A program made the translations under genes and the position numbers. The notes below the pieces were generated by a model that was given only the letters and a program-made list of their open reading frames with translations, had not been told where the DNA came from and searched no databases. Shown here piece after piece: positions 5,979 to 32,682 of a stretch of DNA of 59,970 bases (positions are counted from its first letter, which is position 1; the number at the start of each line of letters is the position of its first letter). The stretch comes from an uncultured Sulfurovum sp. Lineage in GTDB: Bacteria; Campylobacterota; Campylobacteria; Campylobacterales; Sulfurovaceae. Location of the stretch: the NCBI GenBank assembly GCA_902727895.1, contig CACVAP010000100.1:1-59970 (forward strand), read 5' to 3'.

Positions 5979-6002
5979 GTTACTATTTAAAAGTATAGTA
6001 AC
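5979..6002. terminator. Convergent terminator hairpin
   Basis: 8-bp inverted repeat GTTACTAT / ATAGTAAC with an 8-base loop, between the OmpA lipoprotein gene and the end of the leftward pseudopilin operon. It overlaps the stop codon of the latter. Confidence 0.5.
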
Positions 6003-6402
6003 GTGCTGAGTAATCACCTTTAAGCAAAATTTCATTTGCATAAAAAACAAACATTGGTGCGTCACTTTCATCCATACCAACTGGTATGGGTAAAGCTTCT
6101 GTAATATTAATGTTTTTTTCAATCTTCTTTAAAATATCACGACTATCAAAATCTTTAATTGAAAACTCATCGACTAATAAATCATAAGCATTCTTTTTAT
6201 CATTTGTATATCGTTGTACTTTCTTTGTTAAGAACAAAGCATTATCAAGTTCTGCATTTCCTCTTTTTAATAAAAACTCAGCCATATCAGAATTTTGTGC
6301 TTGAAGTTGTAAAGCTCCTGTAACCACAATACCTACTATAATAACTGACATAATCACCTCTATCAATGTAAAAGCTTTTTTAAATTTATATTTAATATTC
6401 AT
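5983..6402 (-). CDS. T2SS minor pseudopilin, GspI-like
   Basis: 139 residues with a prepilin-type leader and helix, KKA / FTLIEVIMSVIIVGIVVTGAL; Glu+5 is present. Position -1 is Ala instead of the usual Gly. The start at 6402 is chosen because AAGGAACA precedes that ATG on the minus strand; a longer in-frame start would run into the upstream gene. Minor pseudopilins GspI/J/K cap the T2SS pseudopilus. The GspI assignment rests on being third after gspG and gspH and on size; GspJ is the alternative, but a GspJ candidate lies after gspE at 14814. Confidence 0.65.
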   Translation of the reverse strand: MNIKYKFKKAFTLIEVIMSVIIVGIVVTGALQLQAQNSDMAEFLLKRGNAELDNALFLTKKVQRYTNDKKNAYDLLVDEFSIKDFDSRDILKKIEKNINITEALPIPVGMDESDAPMFVFYANEILLKGDYSARYYTFK

Positions 6403-6413
6403 ATTGTTCCTTA

Positions 6414-6968
6414 TTAATAAAATGAACCCGAATCCCGTAAAGAGTACTCTTCTTTTAGCCAAAGATCTTTAGCTTCTCCCATATCATCGACTTTCTGAGC
6501 CTGTCCAAAATATGAAGGTAAATAAAATATTCCTTGATTATTAACAATTACCATTTGAGTAGTACTACCGTTAGAATATAAATGATACCGTAAATTTATT
6601 TTCTTATCTTTGTATCTACCTTGCTCATCAAGTTGGATAAAATGATTGTCATTATCAAGTACATGTACTTCTAAATCTTTTCCAAGGTTTATGCCACCAT
6701 TATATGCTGAAATATTTTTACCTTGTAGAACATAACACTCTTCAGATTTTTTAATACAGAAGAATTCAATATCACCTTGCCCTTTAAAGGATTGACGAAG
6801 CGTAGAAGGTAAAGTTGAAGCATCTAATACTTTTACTTTTTGTTGTTGTTTTACAGCTGAAGAAAAAACTAAAAATCCAATGAGAGAAACAATGAGAACC
6901 ACAACGATAAGTTCTAGAAGAGAGAAACCTTTATGTTTTAAATAAAGGTTAGTATTTAAAGAATTCAT
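6414..6968 (-). CDS. T2SS minor pseudopilin, GspH-like
   Basis: 184 residues. The prepilin cleavage region KHKG / FSLLELIVVVLIVSLIGFLVF has Gly-1, Phe+1 and Glu+5. The soluble domain is beta-rich and includes a cysteine pair (FFCIKKSEECYV). It lies 9 bases downstream of gspG and 11 bases upstream of the gspI-like gene, so the three are co-transcribed leftward. GspH is inferred from order and size. Confidence 0.7.
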   Translation of the reverse strand: MNSLNTNLYLKHKGFSLLELIVVVLIVSLIGFLVFSSAVKQQQKVKVLDASTLPSTLRQSFKGQGDIEFFCIKKSEECYVLQGKNISAYNGGINLGKDLEVHVLDNDNHFIQLDEQGRYKDKKINLRYHLYSNGSTTQMVIVNNQGIFYLPSYFGQAQKVDDMGEAKDLWLKEEYSLRDSGSFY

Positions 6969-6977
6969 AAATTCAGA

Positions 6978-7469
6978 TTATTTACAACCAGAGTATTTGA
7001 TATCAGAGTACTCATCCGTTCCACCTTCTCTTCTATCAGCACCATAAGAGATAATATCAAAAGTGTTTCCTGTTTTCATATATACCATTTTTGCACCCCA
7101 TGAGTCTTTAGGTAATTTTTCTAAATACGCTGAAGGTGCATAATTTGCATATTTATCTGAATCAGGGTTAGCTTGTAACGCTTCAAATCCTTCTTCTGTT
7201 TCAGGATACATCCCATTATCAAGTTTAAACATTTTTAGTGCATTTGCTGCACCTTTCATATTGACACATACAAGGTCTACTTTTGCTTTATCTCCTGCTC
7301 CGACAACTTTAGGTACTACAGCAGCAGCTAAAATTCCTAAGATTAAAATAACAACAAGTAACTCTAATAGTGAGAATCCTTTCTTAGCTGTTGTATATTG
7401 TTTTTGATTAATTTTATTAATTAAGCTTAAAGTAAGTTTTTCTTTCTTTAGCTCTATTTTATGGGTCAT
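6978..7469 (-). CDS. gspG: T2SS major pseudopilin GspG
   Basis: 163 residues. An unusually long ~31-residue leader precedes AKKG / FSLLELLVVILILGILAAAVVPKV, the canonical GspG N-terminus with Glu+5. The mature domain has the GspG pattern: a long helix with an MKGAANALKMFKLDNGMYP loop, TEEGFEAL, LPKDSWGAKMVY, then the calcium-loop region FDIISYGADRREGGTDEYSDI. GspG polymerises into the pseudopilus that pushes substrates through GspD. It is the first gene of the leftward unit and divergent from gspK. AAGGAA lies 9 bases before the ATG. Confidence 0.92.
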   Translation of the reverse strand: MTHKIELKKEKLTLSLINKINQKQYTTAKKGFSLLELLVVILILGILAAAVVPKVVGAGDKAKVDLVCVNMKGAANALKMFKLDNGMYPETEEGFEALQANPDSDKYANYAPSAYLEKLPKDSWGAKMVYMKTGNTFDIISYGADRREGGTDEYSDIKYSGCK

Positions 7470-7501: not shown

Positions 7502-7532
7502 ATTGATGATTTTACTTGAATTGAGCTTTATT

Positions 7533-8441
7533 ATGGATAAAAGAAAAACAGGCATTGCACTTTTTATAACCTTGATGGTAATCGCCTCTATTATGTCAAT
7601 AATAGCCGTTTCCTTCACCTATTTAGAGAAAGTTCAAAAGGATGCTGGTAGGACGTCAGCACTTATACAGGCTAACCTTTTATATGGAAATACTGTAGAA
7701 ATTTTAAAACGTTTTTTTCCAGCAGAATCAGATAATAATGATAAACTAGCACTAATTTATACCATGCCTCTTATTTTGAATGAAGCGAAAAGTGGTTTTT
7801 CACTAAACCTCACTTGCCAAGCACTTATGATTGGTCCACCCATAAATTGGTTAGATGAAAAAGTAACTTCTACGATGCCCGAGAAAACAACAATAACTAA
7901 AGGAGTTTTTGAGAGCATCATAGAAATATATGACATAAAAGAGCCTAATGAACTTGAGGAACTACTTCTTCAAGAGATAACGGGAAAATATACACAAAAT
8001 AGAGACTATGAACCAAGACTAAAACAACAAAAGGGCATTGTTTCTAAAGAACAATTTAATAAAGTTTTACTTCACTATGCTTTAATGTATGATGATCAAA
8101 AAGTATTAACGATTCCTTGGGAAAAATATTTTAGTTTTATACACACAACTAAAGATACTAAAATAGATGGGAACTATCTTTCTCCTGAATTTATGTCAGT
8201 AGCATTTGACATTCCCATTGAAATAGTACAAGACTCTTGGATTGTAGGAGAAAGCACTTTGAGTACATTCTTAACTGAAAATGGTATTTCAAAAACCATT
8301 AATAATAAAATATATGCAAATAAAGCACTCAATGCAATGCATTGTAAACAAACTTTTGTCTACCAAGAAAGACAATATAGATTTAAATTTAACTATATAA
8401 AAGGAAGGAGCAACAACTTTGAGTTTAATGGACAAAACTAA
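7533..8441 (+). CDS. gspK: T2SS minor pseudopilin GspK
   Basis: 302 residues from the ATG at 7533 (MDKRKTG / IALFITLMVIASIM). The prepilin-like helix follows RKTG, but position +5 is hydrophobic instead of Glu. That is the hallmark of GspK, the tip pseudopilin. The size (~300) is also right for GspK and about twice that of other pseudopilins. The central region includes a helical insertion with EELLLQEITGKYTQNRDYEP. It overlaps the next gene by 23 bases. An upstream TTG or ATG (7503/7506) would add a 9-10-residue hydrophobic prefix inconsistent with a prepilin leader. Confidence 0.8.
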   Translation: MDKRKTGIALFITLMVIASIMSIIAVSFTYLEKVQKDAGRTSALIQANLLYGNTVEILKRFFPAESDNNDKLALIYTMPLILNEAKSGFSLNLTCQALMIGPPINWLDEKVTSTMPEKTTITKGVFESIIEIYDIKEPNELEELLLQEITGKYTQNRDYEPRLKQQKGIVSKEQFNKVLLHYALMYDDQKVLTIPWEKYFSFIHTTKDTKIDGNYLSPEFMSVAFDIPIEIVQDSWIVGESTLSTFLTENGISKTINNKIYANKALNAMHCKQTFVYQERQYRFKFNYIKGRSNNFEFNGQN

Positions 8442-9348
8442 CAATAGACTATTAATCCATCAAGATATGGAACATGTCACATTAGAACAGAGCGTTGAGA
8501 TTATCTTAACCCCACACTTTTACACTTTCATTCGTGAAGAGCTAGACATCAACTTTAGCTATCAAGCTAAACAGATAGCTGCTTCACTTTTTGATGATTA
8601 TGTTAACAACTTAACAGACTATCAATACCATGTCAGTAAATGTAATAACAACTGGTGCTTTTACGCCTATAATATTGAAGAGATAGAAAAATTTTTGGAA
8701 GGTGTAGGTATTGAAAAACATCGTGTATCCAAAATTTATTTTGCACAAGAATTAAGCTCTGTACTAGATAAGCCCATCCAAATTAGTGATAAAAATGTTT
8801 TAAAAACCATAGACGATACAGTAACTATCATTCCATTACGTTTTATGGAAGAAGACACTGAATTTAAAACACTGAATTTAGCCCAAGTAAAACTAAACTC
8901 GGGAGTCAGTCTAGGTGCTGCACATAGCTCTTTTATACCTTTAAAAGAGACAATTATACTTAGCTCAATATTTTTTATTTTAGGAACAATTTTCATTCTT
9001 GAGGGTAACCGTATTAAAGCTTCAATATCCAATGAAAATGAACAACTGGTAGAATTAATTGATGAAAACCCAAAATATGGTTCAACCTTATTAAGAACTA
9101 ATATCTTAGAGACATATGAACCTATTGATAAAAATGAACGTGCTAAACGTCAGAATATAAAAGATATTGCAAAACTTCTCTCAGCAAACAGTCAATTGAC
9201 AGCTTTGAATATTCGAAAATCAACTATTAAAGCCAATATAAAAACATCGAACTCTACCATATCTAAACAAGTAATACAAAGTGCAAAAGCCAAAGAGTTT
9301 AAAAGTTCTAATAGTGGCTCAGAGATACAAGTGGAGAAAAAACTATGA
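8419..9348 (+). CDS. T2SS inner-membrane platform protein, GspL-like
   Basis: 309 residues, with a cytoplasmic N-terminal domain (~1-175), one transmembrane helix (~178-197, TIILSSIFFILGTIFIL) and a polar periplasmic part of ~110 residues. This bitopic layout and the position between gspK and a gspM-like gene indicate GspL, which anchors the GspE ATPase to the membrane. The sequence itself is divergent. The TTG start at 8419 has AAGGAG 12 bases upstream. The reading frame overlaps gspK by 23 bases, pointing to translational coupling. Confidence 0.6.
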   Translation: MSLMDKTNNRLLIHQDMEHVTLEQSVEIILTPHFYTFIREELDINFSYQAKQIAASLFDDYVNNLTDYQYHVSKCNNNWCFYAYNIEEIEKFLEGVGIEKHRVSKIYFAQELSSVLDKPIQISDKNVLKTIDDTVTIIPLRFMEEDTEFKTLNLAQVKLNSGVSLGAAHSSFIPLKETIILSSIFFILGTIFILEGNRIKASISNENEQLVELIDENPKYGSTLLRTNILETYEPIDKNERAKRQNIKDIAKLLSANSQLTALNIRKSTIKANIKTSNSTISKQVIQSAKAKEFKSSNSGSEIQVEKKL

Positions 9349-9761
9349 ATATGATGACACTTCAACGTTATAAGAATGAACTAATTCTCTTAATAGCTTT
9401 ACTATTTATATTCTTTGCTTTTATGTATAAACTTTCTGCAAATACTTATGTAAAAGAGAACCAAGCTGTTATTCAAAAACAGATAACAGAGATTAATAAA
9501 GTCACTACACTTAAAAACCTATGGAGTAATAAACAATTAGCCAATACTGTTAAAGTTTTAAAAACTGTTGTGCCTTCAACCAAAGTAGTAAGCTTTAGTA
9601 AAAAATCAAAAAAACTGGTTGCTTCTTATCGAAATTTAACTGGTAATGAACTCAGTAAACTTACTAATAAGCTTATTAATATTCCCGTGCAAATTGTGCT
9701 ACTGGACATTAAACAAAGTAGTAAAAACCAATATACGATGGAGTTCACATGCAAATGGTAA
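9345..9761 (+). CDS. T2SS inner-membrane protein, GspM-like
   Basis: 138 residues, with a short cytoplasmic tail, one transmembrane helix (residues ~12-30, ELILLIALLFIFFAFMYKL) and a ~105-residue periplasmic domain of alpha/beta character. Topology, size and position after the GspL-like gene match GspM, the partner that protects and positions GspL. It overlaps the previous gene by 4 bases and the next by 13. The primary sequence is too diverged for certainty. Confidence 0.55.
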   Translation: MNMMTLQRYKNELILLIALLFIFFAFMYKLSANTYVKENQAVIQKQITEINKVTTLKNLWSNKQLANTVKVLKTVVPSTKVVSFSKKSKKLVASYRNLTGNELSKLTNKLINIPVQIVLLDIKQSSKNQYTMEFTCKW

Positions 9762-10267
9762 AACGAATTGTTGGTGGTTTTTTTCTTACACTTATACTCT
9801 TATGGCTTTTTGCACCAAAAGTGGAACTTTATTATCTGTTAGAGAAATCATTAAAAGAAAAAAACATTATCATTTCCAATGAAACAGTAACAGATACTTG
9901 GATTGGATTAAAGATTGAAAATGCTGACATTTATGTTGCAGGAGCAAAAGTTGCGAATACAGCCAAATTAAACTTTAATTTCTTATTTTTTTATAACACT
10001 CTAAAAATAAATCAAATCAACATGGATAAATCTTTATCTAAAATGGCACCCAAAGTGATTAACAATTTAAATGCTAGCTATTCTATATTGAACCCACTTA
10101 AAGTAAAACTTACTGGAGATGGTTCATTTGGTGTTCTTGATGGAGAAGTAAGACTTATGGAGAAAAAAGTAGAAATTTTATTTCCTGTTGCAAAAGAACT
10201 TAAAACTATCAAAAAATTCTTGAAAAAAGACAAAGAGAAAGGATGGTTATATGAAACAAATTATTAA
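9749..10267 (+). CDS. T2SS protein, GspN-like
   Basis: 172 residues, with one N-terminal transmembrane helix (~6-21) followed by a periplasmic beta-rich domain (ENADIYVAGAKVANTAKLNFNF...). This is the profile of the short GspN / AsmA-like proteins that sit between gspM and gspC in some T2SS operons. It overlaps both neighbours (13 and 17 bases). GspN is a non-essential accessory in the systems where it was tested. The assignment is by context and fold pattern, not strong identity. Confidence 0.55.
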   Translation: MQMVKRIVGGFFLTLILLWLFAPKVELYYLLEKSLKEKNIIISNETVTDTWIGLKIENADIYVAGAKVANTAKLNFNFLFFYNTLKINQINMDKSLSKMAPKVINNLNASYSILNPLKVKLTGDGSFGVLDGEVRLMEKKVEILFPVAKELKTIKKFLKKDKEKGWLYETNY

Positions 10268-11081
10268 TAGTAAATATCTTTCAACACTTATCTTTCTTTT
10301 ATCTATAATGGTTATAGTAAAACTATTATGGATTGCTGTATCTCTATTCTTTTTACCTAGCACGGGTGAAGAGTATCAAAGTGAAAACACAACAAAAAAG
10401 CTTTATTATCGTGTTCGATTAACCAATGAATCAAAAGCACTAGCACCTATAAAGCCTGTCCCAGTACAAAATAAAGTAAGTTCAATGCGAGGATACAAAC
10501 TCTTAGGACTTTATAACTCCAAAGAAACATTGGTCGTAACTGTTGAAAAAGGTAAAAAAACAAATATTTTATCTAAAGGTGAAAAAGTCAATGGATTTGA
10601 GCTTATCTCAGCAGGTACAAACTTTGCTATGTTTAAAAAGAATGCAGAAGAATTTAAATTAACCCTTGAAAACACGAAAAGTAATAAAAGTAGTGGAGCA
10701 AGTAAAAATACTTCTCGAGCGCCTACAATTAAAACTCAATCAACTGCAAATATTGTTGAAGAAGGTGGAGTGAAACATATTCCTAGGAGTTTGTTAACTA
10801 CTTATACAAAAGATATGAATAAGATTTGGAAAGACATTGGTATAGCCCAATACAAAAAGAATGGTAAAGCTGATGGATTTAAAGTAAACTTTATCAAAAA
10901 AGGTAGTGACATAGAAAAGCTTGGTCTTAAACGTGGTGACATTCTAAAAGCTGTTAATGCAGAGCCACTCAATTTAAGTTCAGCTATGGGCTTCTTTAAC
11001 AATATAACCGATTTAGAAAATTTAACATTAACCGTTGATAGAAATGGAAAAAGTGAGGATTTAGAATATGAGATTCAGTAA
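10251..11081 (+). CDS. gspC: T2SS protein GspC with PDZ domain
   Basis: 276 residues. A transmembrane helix (~13-33) is followed by a periplasmic HR-type domain (~75-135: MRGYKLLGLYNSKETLVVTV...GEKVNGFELISAG), a Ser/Lys/Thr-rich linker, and a C-terminal PDZ domain (~200-276: GFKVNFIKKGSDIEKLGLKRGDILKAVN). GspC links the inner-membrane platform to the GspD secretin and helps choose substrates. AAAGGA precedes the ATG. The end overlaps gspD by 14 bases. Confidence 0.82.
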   Translation: MKQIINSKYLSTLIFLLSIMVIVKLLWIAVSLFFLPSTGEEYQSENTTKKLYYRVRLTNESKALAPIKPVPVQNKVSSMRGYKLLGLYNSKETLVVTVEKGKKTNILSKGEKVNGFELISAGTNFAMFKKNAEEFKLTLENTKSNKSSGASKNTSRAPTIKTQSTANIVEEGGVKHIPRSLLTTYTKDMNKIWKDIGIAQYKKNGKADGFKVNFIKKGSDIEKLGLKRGDILKAVNAEPLNLSSAMGFFNNITDLENLTLTVDRNGKSEDLEYEIQ

Positions 11082-13299
11082 AATAGCAACAATATTACTC
11101 TTAGCACTTAGTGTGCAAGTACATGCCGAAAAAGTAAACATTAACTTTGCAAACTTAAGTGTCAATGACTTTGTAAAGATGGTAGGTAAAATTACCGGTA
11201 AAAATATTTTAATAGATGGAGAGATCAAAGGTAAAATTAACTTTGTAGCCAATAAAGAAGGTGTTGAGAAAAATGAACTCATACCTCTTCTTAATGCCAT
11301 CCTTGAAACTAAAAAAATGACTTTGGTAAACAAAGGTAGCTACTACCAAGTTGTGAAGTCAGCTACAGCAGCTGGAGAAGGTTTACCTGTCACCAATAAC
11401 ATTAATACTGGTGGCAGAACAATGAAAACAGTAGTATTTCAGCTTTCTAATGTTAATGCTGCTGTCATTCGTACAAAAATCAAGCCATTACTACATAAAA
11501 GTGCAAAAGTAGTCTCTTTTAAAAAGAACAACCTTTTATCTATTACAGCTTACCCAAGTACCTTAAGATCAATTAAAACACTTATTGATAAAATCGAAAA
11601 TAAACAAGCGAAGAAAAGTAAGATTGTTCACTTACAACATGCTCGTGTTAAAGATGTATTTCCTAATATTCAAAACATGGCAAAAGCACTTTTTCCTCAA
11701 GATATTATTTCTGAAAAAGTAGATACCCTTCAAGATATCTCAGGAAATGCCATTATTCTAATCGGTAAATCTTCTAACGTTAATCGTTTAGAACAGTATA
11801 TTAGACAATTAGATACTGAAGGTGAAGGTGACTTACAAAAAATGCATGTTATCGCGCTTGCTAACTCCAATGTCGAAGAGATGGAAAAGATTTTAAGTAA
11901 GATTGTTCCTCAAATGACAGGAACAGGTGGAGCAACTGGTGCTGTTAGTAAAGGTGGAAAACCTATTCAGAAAGCTGTTATTGCTTCCGACTTAGAGAGA
12001 AATGCTTTAATTGTTTTAGCCAATGCTGAGCAATACCAAAATATTTTAGACACAGTGCAACAACTGGATGTTGAAAAATCACAAGTGTATATTCAAGCTA
12101 AAATTGTTGAAGTCAATACTAACTTAGCTGAAAACATCGGAATTAAATACGGACTAAATGGTGGGTCAATTACCTCAAATGGTCTTTTCTCTTTAGCAGC
12201 TAATGCTGGAGCGCCTGCATTGGCACTTTCTAGTGAACTCCTTGGCTTCTTAAACGGAAACTCAACAACACAGTTTGATAGTAATGGAAATGCCTACACA
12301 ACAACAGATCCAGCCTTTGAATTTGGTTCTGTAGATAAAGTATTTGCCTTAGGTGCGCAATTAGACTTACTTAAACAAAATGGTGCAGCACAAATTTTGT
12401 CTAGACCTTCTGTCTTGTCAACAAATAACAAAGAGTCAACCATTTACGTAGGTCGTACCCAATCTATTTTGACACAATCTCAACAAAGTACACAAGGTTC
12501 ATCAAATGTACTAAACAACTATTCACGTGAAGATATTGGTATTACTTTAAAAGTTAAACCAAGACTCTCTTCTAATAATAAAGTATCTTTAGAGATTGAA
12601 ACAACCATTGAGGATATTCTACCAGGTTCAGGTACAGCAGCTGACAGACCTACTACTACTAAAAGATCCGTTCAGACCAATGCCATTATTAACCATGCAG
12701 AGACAATTATCTTAGGGGGTCTCATCAAAAGTGCTGATGGTAACTCTGTAACTAAGGTTCCTATATTAGGTGATATCCCTATTATTGGTAAGCTTTTTAC
12801 TTCACGAGGAGATTCAGCTTCTAAAGTAAATGTTGTTATTTATATTACACCTTACATTGTTCAAAAAAGTTCTGACTTAACAAGCTTACGTGTACGTTTA
12901 TCTGAATTAGAATCTGTGCAAACACAATATAATCAGATTATTATGGCACAACTGGAAGAGGAAACTGGAGAAAGCAGCGACCCTAGACATGAAACATTTT
13001 CTAGTTCATCTAGTAGTACTCCCAAAGTAATAAAAACTAAAGCTCCAGCTGCAGATCGTTACCAACCAGTAATTGAGCCAACATACATAGAACAACCTGT
13101 CTATACACCTGAAGTAATTTCAGGTACAACTATTCCTGAGGTTAACTATAATACAGAAAGTAACTACGTTCAAAGTGAATCAATAATGGATAGCTTTAAT
13201 CAGCGAAGTTCGGTAGACTTAAAGTCTTTAAATACAGGTGTTGAATATAACTCTGGAACAACTTTTTCTAATGTAGATACAAGTCAAGAAAGATTCTAA
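11068..13299 (+). CDS. gspD: T2SS outer-membrane secretin GspD
   Basis: 743 residues. The signal peptide ends at VHA (~20). An N0 domain (~22-95) is followed by N1-N3 repeats (~115-350), each with the secretin pattern KTVVFQLSNVNAA, KIVHLQHARVKDV and MHVIALANSNVEEM. The secretin core is at ~350-600 and includes QAKIVEVNTNLAENIG, AAQILSRPSVLSTNNKE and the closing ETIILGGLIKS...VPILGDIPIIGKLF. The last ~145 residues are a coiled and Ser/Thr/Pro-rich tail with no secretin motif. That tail could hold the pilotin-binding S-domain; I see no obvious pilotin gene nearby. It forms the outer-membrane channel. Confidence 0.93.
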   Translation: MRFSKIATILLLALSVQVHAEKVNINFANLSVNDFVKMVGKITGKNILIDGEIKGKINFVANKEGVEKNELIPLLNAILETKKMTLVNKGSYYQVVKSATAAGEGLPVTNNINTGGRTMKTVVFQLSNVNAAVIRTKIKPLLHKSAKVVSFKKNNLLSITAYPSTLRSIKTLIDKIENKQAKKSKIVHLQHARVKDVFPNIQNMAKALFPQDIISEKVDTLQDISGNAIILIGKSSNVNRLEQYIRQLDTEGEGDLQKMHVIALANSNVEEMEKILSKIVPQMTGTGGATGAVSKGGKPIQKAVIASDLERNALIVLANAEQYQNILDTVQQLDVEKSQVYIQAKIVEVNTNLAENIGIKYGLNGGSITSNGLFSLAANAGAPALALSSELLGFLNGNSTTQFDSNGNAYTTTDPAFEFGSVDKVFALGAQLDLLKQNGAAQILSRPSVLSTNNKESTIYVGRTQSILTQSQQSTQGSSNVLNNYSREDIGITLKVKPRLSSNNKVSLEIETTIEDILPGSGTAADRPTTTKRSVQTNAIINHAETIILGGLIKSADGNSVTKVPILGDIPIIGKLFTSRGDSASKVNVVIYITPYIVQKSSDLTSLRVRLSELESVQTQYNQIIMAQLEEETGESSDPRHETFSSSSSSTPKVIKTKAPAADRYQPVIEPTYIEQPVYTPEVISGTTIPEVNYNTESNYVQSESIMDSFNQRSSVDLKSLNTGVEYNSGTTFSNVDTSQERF

Positions 13300-13300
13300 G

Positions 13301-14812
13301 ATGATACGTTTACCCTTGCTCGAAAATGTTGACTTAGAACCTTACTGGAATGAAAATATTGACAATAAATTGGCAATGAAGCACAACATCCTTTTTGCAA
13401 ATATACAAAACAAACCTTGTGCCATAGTACAAAAAGATTCTCTTGCTTCTGCATTAAATCATTTCTCAAAACTTGATCTTGACTATCCAATTGTTGAATT
13501 GGATGAAGGTAGTTTTGAACGTCTAGGACATAAGTTTAGAGAAATCCAAACTGGTTCAGACTTTGAAAATGTTGACACAACATCTGATGATATCATTGAA
13601 GTAGAATCTGATTTACTAGATTTCATTAGAAACTCTCAAGATTTACTTTCCAATGAAGAGTCAGCACCAGTTGTAAAACTGGTTAACTCACTCTTTTTCC
13701 AAGCCATTAAAAAAGGTGCTTCAGATATTCATATAGAAACCTTAGAGAAAAAAGGTGAAGTACGTTTAAGAATCAATGGTGCATTAAAAAAACACTTAGA
13801 CATTGACAAAAATATTACAGGGCTTGTTATCTCACGTATCAAAGTTATTTCCAACCTTGATATTTCAGAAAAAAGAATCCCTCAAGATGGTCGTACTCAA
13901 GTAAGTATTTCAGGAAATAGTCTAGACATAAGGGTTTCGGTTCTTCCTACCTATCATGGTGAACGTGTTGTTATGAGACTTCTAATGACATCGGAGAGTA
14001 TTCCCACATTACAAACCCTTGGTTTCACTGATGACATTACCAATGATTTAAATAAACTATTAACACACCCTCATGGTATGATTTTGGTTACTGGTCCTAC
14101 AGGTTCAGGTAAATCAACTACTTTACATGCTTGTTTACAACACATTGCCACACCAGATAAAAATATTATTACTGTTGAAGATCCAGTAGAATACAATGCT
14201 GAAAATGTCAATCAAATTCAAGTAAATTCTAAAGTTGGTCTTACGTTTGCAGCAGGCTTACGTTCTATCTTGAGACAGGATCCTGACATTATTATGGTGG
14301 GGGAAATTAGAGATGCTGAAACAGCAGATATTTCTCTGCGTTCTGCATTAACAGGTCACCTTTTACTCTCTACCCTACATACAAATGATGCAACATCTGC
14401 TATTTCAAGATTAATGGACATGGGAATTGAAGACTTTTTATTAACTTCTACCTTATTGGGGGTTTTAGCACAACGACTTACACGTAAACTCTGTACAGAA
14501 TGTAAAGTAGCAACACCATTAGCACCAACTGTACTAAAAGAACTAAATCTTCCAGAAGGTGTTTACTTTAAAGCAGAAGGTTGTACTGAGTGTGACTTTA
14601 CAGGATACAAAGGGAGACAAGCTGTTGGTGAACTATTTATTATGGATGACAATGTTAAGGATATGATGCAAAAAGGTTTTAATGACCACCAAATTCGTGC
14701 CGAAATGAAGAAGTTAGGAATGAGAACCATTGCTGATAAATTAGCTGATATGATGATTGCTGGAGATACCTCCTATGAGGAGGCAATTCGTATTGGTATT
14801 ATGGAAAACTAG
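13301..14812 (+). CDS. gspE: T2SS cytoplasmic ATPase GspE
   Basis: 503 residues. The N-terminal domain is short and diverged. The ATPase core carries Walker A GPTGSGKST (~265-273), an Asp box (TVEDPVEY), Walker B-region DPDIIMVGEIRD and a His box (LLLSTLHTND). A zinc-binding subdomain with two CxxC pairs (CTEC ~400 and CTEC ~427) is retained, as in GspE/PilB. It powers pseudopilus growth. The ATG lies 1 base after the gspD stop. PilB is the alternative, but the gspC-gspD context argues for GspE. Confidence 0.9.
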   Translation: MIRLPLLENVDLEPYWNENIDNKLAMKHNILFANIQNKPCAIVQKDSLASALNHFSKLDLDYPIVELDEGSFERLGHKFREIQTGSDFENVDTTSDDIIEVESDLLDFIRNSQDLLSNEESAPVVKLVNSLFFQAIKKGASDIHIETLEKKGEVRLRINGALKKHLDIDKNITGLVISRIKVISNLDISEKRIPQDGRTQVSISGNSLDIRVSVLPTYHGERVVMRLLMTSESIPTLQTLGFTDDITNDLNKLLTHPHGMILVTGPTGSGKSTTLHACLQHIATPDKNIITVEDPVEYNAENVNQIQVNSKVGLTFAAGLRSILRQDPDIIMVGEIRDAETADISLRSALTGHLLLSTLHTNDATSAISRLMDMGIEDFLLTSTLLGVLAQRLTRKLCTECKVATPLAPTVLKELNLPEGVYFKAEGCTECDFTGYKGRQAVGELFIMDDNVKDMMQKGFNDHQIRAEMKKLGMRTIADKLADMMIAGDTSYEEAIRIGIMEN

Positions 14813-14813
14813 T

Positions 14814-15383
14814 ATGAACAGAGGACATAAAGCATTTACCATTGTAGAAGTATTAATTTCTATTACGCTACTTTCATTGGTACTCATGGCACTTTACAAG
14901 AGTGCCGATCTTATGAGAGCCTCTAACTTACACCTTTTTAACCATCTCAAAAAATCAACCAATACACTAAAGGGTTCAACAACACTTTATAAAGATTTAA
15001 TTCATGCTGAACACAATATTACCATTAATACAGAAGAAAATTTTCACCGACTAAGTATTGAAAATACCAGTCATTCACTTTATGGTTTAGCACAGGCAAA
15101 AGTTGTTTGGTTAATTCATAAAACTGACAACACGCTTCTACGTGTTGAAGGAGGAGACTATAATATCCCTCTTAAAAATGAAGAACGTGTAGAGATAGAT
15201 ATCATAGCAAAAAATGTGGAACTCTTTAAAGTTTACAAAAGTAAAAAGAAAGATAAAATCTTAGCAATGATTCAAGTAAAAGGTCAAGACCCTCAAGTAT
15301 TTATGTCTCAAAATATTGCAGAAGCTCCTCCCAAACCAAAAGATAGTAATACTACCAAACCAGTAACTCCTAAAGTACCTTAG
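14814..15383 (+). CDS. T2SS minor pseudopilin, GspJ-like
   Basis: 189 residues from the ATG at 14814, one base after the gspE stop. The leader and helix are GHKA / FTIVEVLISITLLSLVLMAL with Glu+5 and, as in the GspI-like protein, Ala at -1. The soluble region contains the YGLAQAKVVWLIHKTDNTLLRVEG pattern seen in GspJ-type proteins (the 'LxRxE' strand). The C-terminus is Pro/Lys/Thr-rich. It is the last recognisable T2SS gene of the rightward unit, and the next gene (exosortase-like) starts 4 bases after its stop. Confidence 0.65.
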   Translation: MNRGHKAFTIVEVLISITLLSLVLMALYKSADLMRASNLHLFNHLKKSTNTLKGSTTLYKDLIHAEHNITINTEENFHRLSIENTSHSLYGLAQAKVVWLIHKTDNTLLRVEGGDYNIPLKNEERVEIDIIAKNVELFKVYKSKKKDKILAMIQVKGQDPQVFMSQNIAEAPPKPKDSNTTKPVTPKVP

Positions 15384-15387
15384 TAAC

Positions 15388-15858
15388 TTGAAAAAATTTA
15401 TTTTCTTCTATCCTCTAAGTATTGCTTTACTCTTTATATTTTTCTATTGGGATGGTTCTACCCTAGCTATCATACTTAATGAGTGGCAAGTAAAATTGAG
15501 TTCACAGTTAACTAGCTTTACCCTAGCTAAAGATTTAATGCAAGAAAATCATATTTTTATAAGTCCTAGTCTTACACTTGTGATTGATAAGTCTTGCAAT
15601 GGTTTTATCCCCTACTTCTTCTTTTTAGGCTCAATCATCGCTTTTCCGTCAACACTCAAACATAAAGTTAAATGGGCTATTTTAGGTTATATCCTACTTT
15701 CTTTGCTTAATGTCTTTAGAATTTGGTTTATTACTCAATTTGTAATGAACTCACAAAATAACTTCTCACTAGCACATGACTACCTTGGAAATATATTTCT
15801 TGTTTTATCAGGTACCCTTTTATTTGTTACATTTATCAAAACAAGACCTACTACATAA
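15388..15858 (+). CDS. Short exosortase/archaeosortase-family protein, copy 1
   Basis: 156 residues, with about four to five hydrophobic segments. The exosortase catalytic triad pattern is visible: Cys70 in DKSCNG at the edge of a helix, Arg111 in NVFRIW, and His130 in SLAHDYLGN. Exosortases are membrane transpeptidases that cut C-terminal sorting signals (PEP-CTERM and relatives). This one is of the short stand-alone type, such as the XrtH-like group; subfamily is not certain. The start is a TTG 4 bases after gspJ, so it is translated from the T2SS operon. About 90 of the first 153 residues are identical, without gaps, to the next gene. Confidence 0.72.
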   Translation: MKKFIFFYPLSIALLFIFFYWDGSTLAIILNEWQVKLSSQLTSFTLAKDLMQENHIFISPSLTLVIDKSCNGFIPYFFFLGSIIAFPSTLKHKVKWAILGYILLSLLNVFRIWFITQFVMNSQNNFSLAHDYLGNIFLVLSGTLLFVTFIKTRPTT

Positions 15859-15910
15859 ACTCATATATCTGTTAAATTTTCGTTAGATTAGCAACTTGAC
15901 TATCATATAT

Positions 15911-15934
15911 AAGAGTATTTTTCATAATACTTTT
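15911..15934 (+). terminator. Weak hairpin between the two exosortase genes
   Basis: The imperfect stem AAGAGTATT / AATACTTTT (one G-U pair) ends in T's, 53 bases after the first exosortase stop. It could end most T2SS-operon transcripts, leaving the second copy on its own promoter within 15935-16020. Confidence 0.35.
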
Positions 15935-16020
15935 AAACAATAAGTAATTTCTCCACAATTGTATGATAAAATAAATTTTACAAAAAAATATTAATATATT
16001 TATTTAAGGTTTATTTTATA

Positions 16021-16545
16021 ATGAAAAAATTTCTTTTAACTTACTGGACAGGAATCATCATACTATTTGCATTATTCTACTGGGAATATTCACCTATTAG
16101 TGCTATTATTAATAATTATCAAACCAATTTAACATCATTGCTAACTTCATTTTCTTTAAAAGAGGGAATGATGGAAGCACATCGTATTTTTATAACTGAA
16201 CATTATGCACTCGTTATTGAAAAAGCTTGTAATGGAATGATTCCTTATCTCTTTTTTCTAGCTTCTATTCTTGCTTTTCCCTCTACAATTATGCATAAAG
16301 TAAAATGGGCGATAATGGGTTATTTATTTATATCTGCAATGAATATCTTTAGAATTTGGTTTGTAACTCAATTTGTACTACAATCTCAAAACAACTTCTC
16401 TTTAGCCCATGATTATTTGGGTAATGGACTGCTTATTCTAACAGGTCTCATTTTATTTACTTCTTTTATAAAAACTAGAAATAATAATAAAGAAGCAAAA
16501 GAAGTTTTACCTCAAACTAAACAAAGAGTACAAGTAACTGTCTAA
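16021..16545 (+). CDS. Short exosortase/archaeosortase-family protein, copy 2
   Basis: 174 residues, a tandem paralogue of the previous gene. The same triad falls at identical positions: Cys70 (EKACNG), Arg111 (NIFRIW) and His130 (SLAHDYLGN). The segment FPSTxxHKVKWAIxGY is also conserved. It differs by a ~21-residue basic/polar tail rich in Lys, Asn and Gln. Unlike copy 1 it has an ATG start and a 162-base AT-rich leader, so it may be separately regulated. No target with a PEP-CTERM-like tail (motif, helix, basic end) was found among the other proteins of the window, so substrates must be elsewhere. Confidence 0.72.
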   Translation: MKKFLLTYWTGIIILFALFYWEYSPISAIINNYQTNLTSLLTSFSLKEGMMEAHRIFITEHYALVIEKACNGMIPYLFFLASILAFPSTIMHKVKWAIMGYLFISAMNIFRIWFVTQFVLQSQNNFSLAHDYLGNGLLILTGLILFTSFIKTRNNNKEAKEVLPQTKQRVQVTV

Positions 16546-16604: not shown

Positions 16605-17354
16605 ATGACTGTAACTAAATACTCTGCCAATGGTAATGACTTTGTTATTATCATTCGTAAAAAGAAAAAAGACCGTTCTAAATTGGCAAAGCGTCTTTGT
16701 CACAGACAAAATGGTATTGGAGCTGATGGACTGGTAGTCGTTATACCTCACCAAGAATATGACTTTGAATGGGACTTTTACAATGCAGACGGTAGCCGTG
16801 CTACTATGTGTGGTAATGCTTCTCGTGCCGTAGCACATTATGCTATGGAAAAAGGTATTTCAGAAGATGGACATGCAGAGTTTTTAACAGGTGCTGGCGT
16901 AATTTCTGCTAACGTCAATGGGAACTACGTTACTACAGACATGACAAAACCTATTAGACTAAGTACTGAAATCGAAGAAGAAGGCGAAACTTGGTGGTTT
17001 ATTGACACTGGTGTTCCTCATATCGTTGGTATCCGTAATAACATTGATGAGTTTGACTTAGCACAAGCAAAACGCCTACGCGATAAATTTAATGCAAATG
17101 TAAATATTTGTAGAATTGAAGATGAAGAAACTTTATATGTACGAACCTATGAACGTGGTGTAGAAGACGAAACATTAGCTTGTGGTACTGGAATGGTTGC
17201 TTGCTTTATTCGTGCCAATGATGAAGACTTAGTAAATGATGATGTAAAAGTCTTTCCAAAATCTGGTGATGAACTGTATGTTTCTTTTGAAGAAGATATT
17301 TATAGATTTTCTGGACAAGTAACTAAAACTTTTGTTGCTGAAACCACTGACTAG
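16605..17354 (+). CDS. dapF: Diaminopimelate epimerase
   Basis: 249 residues. Both catalytic cysteines are in canonical motifs: Cys69 in MCGNASRA and Cys193 in ACGTGMVA. SANGNDFVII near the N-terminus and the GADGLV segment are also family-typical. The enzyme interconverts LL- and meso-diaminopimelate for peptidoglycan and lysine synthesis. The length is slightly short of the usual ~275, as in other epsilonproteobacteria. GAGGAAA precedes the ATG. Confidence 0.95.
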   Translation: MTVTKYSANGNDFVIIIRKKKKDRSKLAKRLCHRQNGIGADGLVVVIPHQEYDFEWDFYNADGSRATMCGNASRAVAHYAMEKGISEDGHAEFLTGAGVISANVNGNYVTTDMTKPIRLSTEIEEEGETWWFIDTGVPHIVGIRNNIDEFDLAQAKRLRDKFNANVNICRIEDEETLYVRTYERGVEDETLACGTGMVACFIRANDEDLVNDDVKVFPKSGDELYVSFEEDIYRFSGQVTKTFVAETTD

Positions 17355-32031: not shown

Positions 32032-32682
32032 ATGAAATTAACACAATCACTTGTAGCTATTGCTACACTAAGTACTTTAAGTTTTGCTGGTGGGGATATT
32101 AACCCTGTAACTGTATTTGAACAAGAGCCAATTATGGTTCCAGTTGAACCTGTAGTTGTAACACAACCTGTAGTTGTAACACCAGCTCCAGCTCCAGCTC
32201 CAGCTCCAGCTCCAGCTCCAGTTGTAGCTGCTGCACCATTAGGTCTTTATGTTGCTGGTGGACTTACTGGTCTTGGTGTACGTACCAATGATAGAGTTAA
32301 TCTATTTTCTGAGGAAAATACACAAGATAGACAAGTTGGTGTTACAGGTAGACTTGGTTATGACTTTATGAACTATTTAGGTGCTGAATTAAGAGGTACT
32401 GCTGGTGTTTCTAAAGAGAATGGTAGTAAATTTAAGCAAGTTGGTGCTTATTTAAAACCAAACTATGATTTAACTGATGATCTTAACCTTTATGGTTTAG
32501 CTGGTATATCTAAAACAAATGGTGCATTTACACCTACTGAAACTGGTTTCTCTTATGGTGCTGGTCTTGACTATGGTATTTCAGATAAAGTTTCTGTATT
32601 TACAGATGTAGTTAATTACATGAAAAAATCTAATACTGCATCACAATGGGGTCTAACTCTTGGTGCTGGTTACGCATTCTAA
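32032..32682 (+). CDS. Small outer-membrane beta-barrel protein with Pro-Ala linker
   Basis: 216 residues. The signal peptide ends in LSFA/GG. A periplasmic linker rich in Pro, Val and Ala (~40-68, with a run of Pro-Ala dipeptides) is followed by a ~145-residue beta-barrel with alternating residues and a C-terminal aromatic end (TLGAGYAF), a BAM-recognition-like signal. The domain resembles the OmpW/OprF-like 8-stranded porin families (outer_membrane_beta-barrel class). The gene has its own promoter and terminator. The Pro-Ala run is encoded by an almost perfect hexamer repeat (32182-32217), so linker length could vary. Confidence 0.75.
   Translation: MKLTQSLVAIATLSTLSFAGGDINPVTVFEQEPIMVPVEPVVVTQPVVVTPAPAPAPAPAPAPVVAAAPLGLYVAGGLTGLGVRTNDRVNLFSEENTQDRQVGVTGRLGYDFMNYLGAELRGTAGVSKENGSKFKQVGAYLKPNYDLTDDLNLYGLAGISKTNGAFTPTETGFSYGAGLDYGISDKVSVFTDVVNYMKKSNTASQWGLTLGAGYAF
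32182..32217 (+). repeat. Hexanucleotide tandem repeat (CCAGCT)6
   Basis: Six exact copies of CCAGCT followed by CCAGTT, inside the linker of the beta-barrel protein. It is preceded by two near-identical 18-base units (CCTGTAGTTGTAACAC...). As it is a multiple of three bases, copy changes would alter linker length without frameshift. Confidence 0.85.

Follow-up and report, generated by a model that had tools for sequence, protein, structure and literature searches.

A putative exosortase route for giant tail-bearing surface proteins, linked to type II secretion in Sulfurovaceae

In an uncultured Sulfurovum sp., two exosortase-family genes, here named xrtA and xrtB, follow gspJ in a type II secretion system (T2SS) gene cluster, and in related genomes exosortases of this kind occur together with giant proteins that share a C-terminal tail. 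We consider it likely that the exosortases process giant adhesins, which then reach the cell surface by way of the T2SS. The window, i.e., the whole stretch of 59,970 nt that was analyzed, is one contig (C100) of a source genome of 2.96 Mb in 105 contigs. It was compared with 142 genomes of one family, inferred to be the Sulfurovaceae.

The cluster comprises gspG-H-I on the minus strand and gspK-L-M-N-C-D-E-J on the plus strand; behind gspJ lie xrtA, xrtB and a dapF-like gene. The genes gspK to gspC, which have weak or no Pfam matches, were assigned by gene order; this order is identical in the relatives examined.

5983..7469, minus strand: gspG, gspH and gspI, pseudopilins with N-terminal pilin-type motifs, divergent from gspK (arrangement kept in relatives)
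7503-8441, plus strand: gspK, by gene order
8419-9348, plus strand: gspL, by gene order
9345-9761, plus strand: gspM, by gene order
9749-10267, plus strand: gspN, by gene order
10251-11081, plus strand: gspC, by gene order
11068..13299, plus strand: gspD, secretin (TIGR02517, 371 bits, cutoff 351)
13301..14812, plus strand: gspE-type secretion ATPase, by sequence and position (77-97% identical neighbors of xrt in relatives)
14757..15383, plus strand: gspJ-like minor pseudopilin (N_methyl PF07963, 26.8 bits, cutoff 21.2; adjacency to xrt kept in relatives)
15388..15858, plus strand: xrtA, exosortase-family protein of 156 aa, TTG start (TIGR04178, 49.1 bits, cutoff 23; C70/R111/H130)
16021..16545, plus strand: xrtB, exosortase-family protein of 174 aa, ATG start (TIGR04178, 44.8 bits, cutoff 23; XrtH, 55.9 bits, cutoff 86)
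16605..17354, plus strand: dapF-like gene, downstream neighbor of xrt in many congeners

The true start of gspJ probably lies near 14814, and the dapF-like gene likely stands outside the exosortase system. Elsewhere in the window, positions 382-1872 encode a protein of 496 aa in which YKTV-type motifs recur and whose C terminus looks peptidoglycan-binding-like by eye. In a relative (locus L070, 3-917), the C-terminal part of a GspJ-like protein consists of a long IQA repeat.

Both xrtA and xrtB encode members of the exosortase/archaeosortase superfamily. They exceed the curated cutoff of its signature, TIGR04178, and their NCBIfam matches are confined to exosortase/archaeosortase families, with no rhombosortase or myxosortase family among them. 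The residues C70, R111 and H130 are present in both proteins and invariant in an alignment of 23 exosortases, down to 22% identity, all of which match TIGR04178 at E 1e-3 or better. That these enzymes cleave or transpeptidate the tails described below is inferred. Neither protein passed any subfamily cutoff. The nearest subfamilies were XrtH (TIGR04177, cutoff 86; 41.4 bits for xrtA and again below cutoff for xrtB) and XrtX (NF046081, cutoff 170; 54.2 and 54.5 bits), while the PEP-CTERM/EpsH exosortase model (TIGR02602, cutoff 105.55) gave 20.7 bits for xrtA and did not list xrtB. AlphaFold2 yields a confident model of xrtB, with a mean pLDDT of 87.7. Searching the PDB by sequence and, with this model, by fold revealed no solved relative, so the fold provides no independent confirmation.

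An earlier note, made from the sequence alone, had described two paralogous exosortases with the Cys70/Arg111/His130 pattern behind gspJ, the first 4 bases past its stop. This held in coordinates, spacing and residues: the gspJ stop codon (TAG) at 15383 is followed by TAAC and by the TTG of xrtA at 15388, and 162 bases separate the xrtA stop from the ATG of xrtB at 16021. The statement that the copies differ mainly in the tail failed. They are 57% identical over 155 residues, with 42% identity in residues 1-60 vs 67% in residues 61-155, and they lie on separate branches of a maximum-likelihood tree. There, the three xrtA proteins, from the source genome, G030 and G031, i.e., from the only same-genus genomes with two copies, form their own clade inside the genus (support 100/99), and xrtB clusters with the exosortases of close congeners, which have one copy each. 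A supposed difference in expression signals was unsupported, as a promoter and terminator scan around the xrt genes found sites no more frequently than in shuffles. Nor was there support for different targets of the two copies, in the form of two exosortases for two tail types, since the single-copy genome G022 carries both types. The tandem second copy is unexplained. The absence of a substrate from the window was confirmed, with no convincing match there to a tail HMM; candidates were found elsewhere in the genome.

The lead to these candidates came from two other genera, g7 and g2, in which the products of genes near the exosortase are giant proteins with a helix and a charged tail at the C-terminal end. 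Searching with SdrD_B repeats identified similar giants in 18 of 18 exosortase-positive Sulfurovaceae tested and, weakly, in one of seven negative ones. Their tail follows the design CxC..Y..S(I/V)PA(M/L)(N/G), a membrane helix, then R/K-x-E; in a broader form, CxC and a short spacer precede S-x-[SP]-A-[LMF]-[NG] or a similar motif, the helix, and R/K then E. A C-terminal helix was found in 45 of 47 distinct tails, and of these 45, 42 had the CxC and all had the basic-then-acidic end. An N-terminal hydrophobic segment was present in 20 of 21 full-length tail proteins and an internal one in none. The remaining domains vary (SdrD_B, CshA repeats, Ig, SpaA, laminin-G), and the tail is therefore portable between clients. 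In the source genome, complete tail proteins are encoded on contigs C92 (2164 aa) and C93 (1334 aa); a third, on C45, has a complete tail and at least 1975 aa, its N terminus lying off the contig, and two further SdrD_B giants run off contig ends. The CxC might form a disulfide or carry a lipid; both are possible and the evidence decides neither.

Exosortase and tail very likely belong together. To the 142 family genomes we applied a tail profile of 46 positions. In the well-assembled subset (≥90% complete, ≤150 contigs, n = 61), 33 genomes had both exosortase and tail, two the exosortase only, none the tail only and 26 neither (Fisher P = 3e-15), i.e., the tail occurred in 33 of 35 exosortase-positive vs 0 of 26 negative genomes. 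In one of the two exosortase-only genomes, G210, the giant neighbor runs off the contig. The pattern recurred within genus g6 alone (20/20 vs 0/12) and across the class, where the profile matched 16 of 19 exosortase-positive genomes vs 1 of 378 negative ones, the lone negative at E 9.8e-4. Restricting the comparison to T2SS-positive genomes gave tails in 47 of 53 with the exosortase vs 3 of 26 without. Among all 142 genomes, 16 were tail-only, mostly fragmented drafts. Five exosortase-negative, tail-positive genomes were checked; in four of them the contig breaks off at or within the T2SS cluster, just where an exosortase would be expected next. In the fifth, G019, the absence is unexplained: other genes follow gspE. 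These occupy the place of gspJ and the exosortase at locus L177 (3858-5044), despite the tail match in that genome. The Fisher tests treat genomes as independent, without correction for phylogeny. The profile tails were themselves found in exosortase-positive genomes, mostly via SdrD_B repeats and partly via exosortase neighborhoods, which may favor such genomes somewhat.

Exosortases of this kind were found in 19 of 397 high-quality genomes of the class, all in Sulfurovaceae and one other family, in 77 of the 142 family genomes and in 25 of 34 genomes of the source genus. In the latter 25, a manual count placed gspJ and/or gspE just upstream in 19, with contig ends cutting two and other neighbors in four. 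Across the family, the exosortase lies within 10 kb of gspD in 43 of 77 cases; the other 34, without shown linkage, are partly due to contig breaks but also include the complete genome G486 and genus g3. T2SS-linked exosortases occur in five genera and at three different places in the clusters: after gspJ in the source genus; between gspI and gspF in g6, in convergent orientation, with g69 having it on that side of gspI too; and downstream of gspE in g5, a genus in which a single run holds the T2SS genes, the barrel, the exosortase and the giant protein. Because congeners G008, G016 and G020 have exosortase-dapF pairs without a T2SS, and the g3 gene lies four genes away from dapF, we infer that the linkage arose more than once. 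GspD was present in all 53 exosortase-positive genomes of ≥90% completeness vs 26 of 41 exosortase-negative ones; since the T2SS is common in the family, this co-occurrence is weaker evidence than that of the tail. Three g6 genomes (G258, G237 and G479) have intact syntenic T2SS clusters without an exosortase, the gspI-gspF gap being only about 90-140 bases, and the exosortase is therefore an optional add-on rather than a T2SS component. Four g6 exosortases outside the T2SS cluster were examined, and each had a tail protein gene and a gene for an OmpA-like barrel close by.

In G472, an exosortase pseudogene with several stops occupies the gspI-gspF slot (locus L196, 10119-10313; C192, 10131-10597), and the sole tail match of this genome reaches only a weak E of 0.00125, which hints that exosortase and tail were lost together.

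The earlier note would have been refuted by a genome without C-terminal sorting-type proteins, by genes without an exosortase HMM match, or by an adjacency to gspJ not conserved in relatives. None of this applies: such proteins exist, both genes match the superfamily model if no subfamily cutoff, and the adjacency is kept in most congeners. Its central suggestion, that the T2SS or its cargo is coupled to C-terminal cleavage and anchoring, is still inference, now backed by co-occurrence.

Two further kinds of genes accompany the tail proteins. An OmpA-like barrel gene (PF13505) lies directly 3′ of the tail gene in 32 of the 42 cases with enough downstream sequence, against a background of about 4% of all ORFs in the sampled loci, which are themselves enriched for the barrel. 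Of four barrel homologs in the source genome, only one adjoins a tail protein; two had no tail neighbor on inspection, and a third is the lone window copy described below. In several genomes, genes for one class of tail protein lie within a conserved cluster for polysaccharide export (L121, 7661-17586; L137; L117), together with those for Wzz/Wzc-like proteins, Poly_export, CpsB, UDP-glucose dehydrogenase and an epimerase. For these clients, a glycan anchor or a polysaccharide-export route remains possible. Within the window, positions 32032-32679 encode an outer membrane beta-barrel protein that stands alone and is 32% identical to the tail-associated barrel.

In the proposed mechanism, the exosortases would be inner-membrane enzymes, acting there as intramembrane cysteine (trans)peptidases. 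Their clients would be surface proteins of very large size, built from repeats, whose export depends on an N-terminal signal and whose C-terminal tail (CxC, S-x-PA[LM][NG]-type motif, helix, R/K-x-E) retains them in the inner membrane. Cleavage of the tail by the exosortase would fall at the motif or close to it, and the enzyme would probably transfer the protein to an anchor. In the current view of the superfamily, Sec exports the clients and the tail retains them until the exosortase cuts them, after which they are passed on (PMC12188702). The freed, folded client would then cross the outer membrane through the T2SS encoded beside the exosortase and remain on the surface, where the OmpA-like barrel might aid its retention. 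The T2SS is proposed as the exit because of its gene linkage with the exosortase, and by analogy with the clients of rhombosortase and myxosortase (PMC3237569, PMC11980579); export of at least some clients by this system is likely, as an inference. The genomes directly show the exosortase identity, the tail architecture, the co-occurrence of the exosortase with tail and T2SS, its linkage to the T2SS and the adjacency of the barrel gene. Experimental proof of cleavage or secretion is lacking, and cleavage, its site, the anchor, passage through the T2SS and the role of the barrel are all inferred.

The most serious alternative holds that the exosortase processes the tails while the clients leave by another route, such as polysaccharide export, the OmpA-like barrel or an unknown pore, the linkage to the T2SS reflecting co-expression or chance gene order. 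This remains possible. It is favored by the tail protein class in Wza/Wzc/CpsB-like clusters, reminiscent of classical PEP-CTERM systems, by the large number of exosortase genes without shown gspD linkage, by the barrel, which is more closely associated with client genes than the T2SS is, and by the T2SS-less exosortase-dapF pairs, which suggest that the linkage may be partly an inherited neighborhood. Against it stand the linkage at three different places in different genera and the lack of any exosortase-positive genome of ≥90% completeness without a T2SS. Moreover, an OmpA-type barrel of eight strands is too narrow to pass a giant protein.

Two other readings leave the tails aside. The exosortase could be a T2SS assembly or pseudopilin-processing factor only indirectly linked to the tails, as the position of xrtA directly after gspJ might suggest. 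This is all but excluded: the intact exosortase-less clusters largely refute an assembly role, GspJ has no C-terminal helix, and the exosortase predicts tails even among T2SS-positive genomes. Alternatively, the exosortases could be unrelated passengers, neutral neighbors of the T2SS acting on some unidentified target. The lack of a tail in the window speaks for this reading, which is nevertheless very unlikely given the exosortase-tail co-occurrence and the closeness of exosortase and tail genes where the T2SS lies elsewhere.

Compared with known systems, the preferred route through the T2SS resembles several without matching any. XrtH with its IPTL-CTERM tail (TIGR04174) is the nearest named subfamily for xrtB, and its tail consists likewise of an IPxL-like motif, helix and charged end, so that VPALN or SIPAMG can be aligned by eye with IPTL. 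However, both enzymes stay under the XrtH cutoff, the Sulfurovaceae tails add an upstream CxC and end in R/K-x-E, and the gene lies in T2SS clusters. The IPTL-CTERM HMM had no match in the source genome, its tails included, but control genomes gave none either. With the PEP-CTERM/exosortase (EpsH) system it shares the superfamily, a tripartite C-terminal tail, an N-terminal signal and, for some clients, a place beside polysaccharide export genes; it differs in its motif, its few but giant clients per genome and the T2SS linkage. Rhombosortase/GlyGly-CTERM of Vibrio is also a C-terminal sorting protease acting on T2SS cargo that ends on the surface, yet it is an unrelated serine protease, and its discoverers saw no sign of it marking a T2SS subclass (PMC3237569), whereas the Sulfurovaceae exosortase gene lies inside the T2SS cluster. 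Myxosortase/MYXO-CTERM of Myxococcus combines a sorting protease, a Cys near the tail and T2SS export to the surface (PMC11980579), but belongs to another enzyme family, and its one invariant Cys lies within the signature motif that precedes the helix, in contrast to the CxC well upstream.

Neither the enzyme family nor the concept of sorting by tails is new; the T2SS placement, this tail and the partnership with a barrel appear to be. In the open-licence literature searched, we found neither an exosortase described from a T2SS cluster nor any exosortase reported for Campylobacterota. The way in which exosortase substrates pass the outer membrane has not been settled; a 2025 study of cyanoexosortase terms it unclear (PMC12188702). 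In g5, where one cluster holds the exosortase, the T2SS, a client and the barrel, one answer can be tested directly. The bolder claim of a defined outer membrane exit route for exosortase substrates is one towards which we lean only slightly. Another, unrelated protease family would then join the sorting enzymes tied to T2SS cargo. The tail proteins are also candidates for adhesins in those vent bacteria that grow as biofilms on sulfur particles, with their T2SS genes induced at the time (PMC10045233).

Finally, the distant exosortase of another bacterial family, f8, is flanked by proteins with tails of a VPLSPLALGFL-helix-RR type (L083, 7739-9418 and 10664-11653; L084, 10611-11375). These tails come near IPTL-CTERM, just below its cutoff (19.6 vs 20.5 for a tail of the f8 relative), and two of the proteins carry choice-of-anchor U domains.
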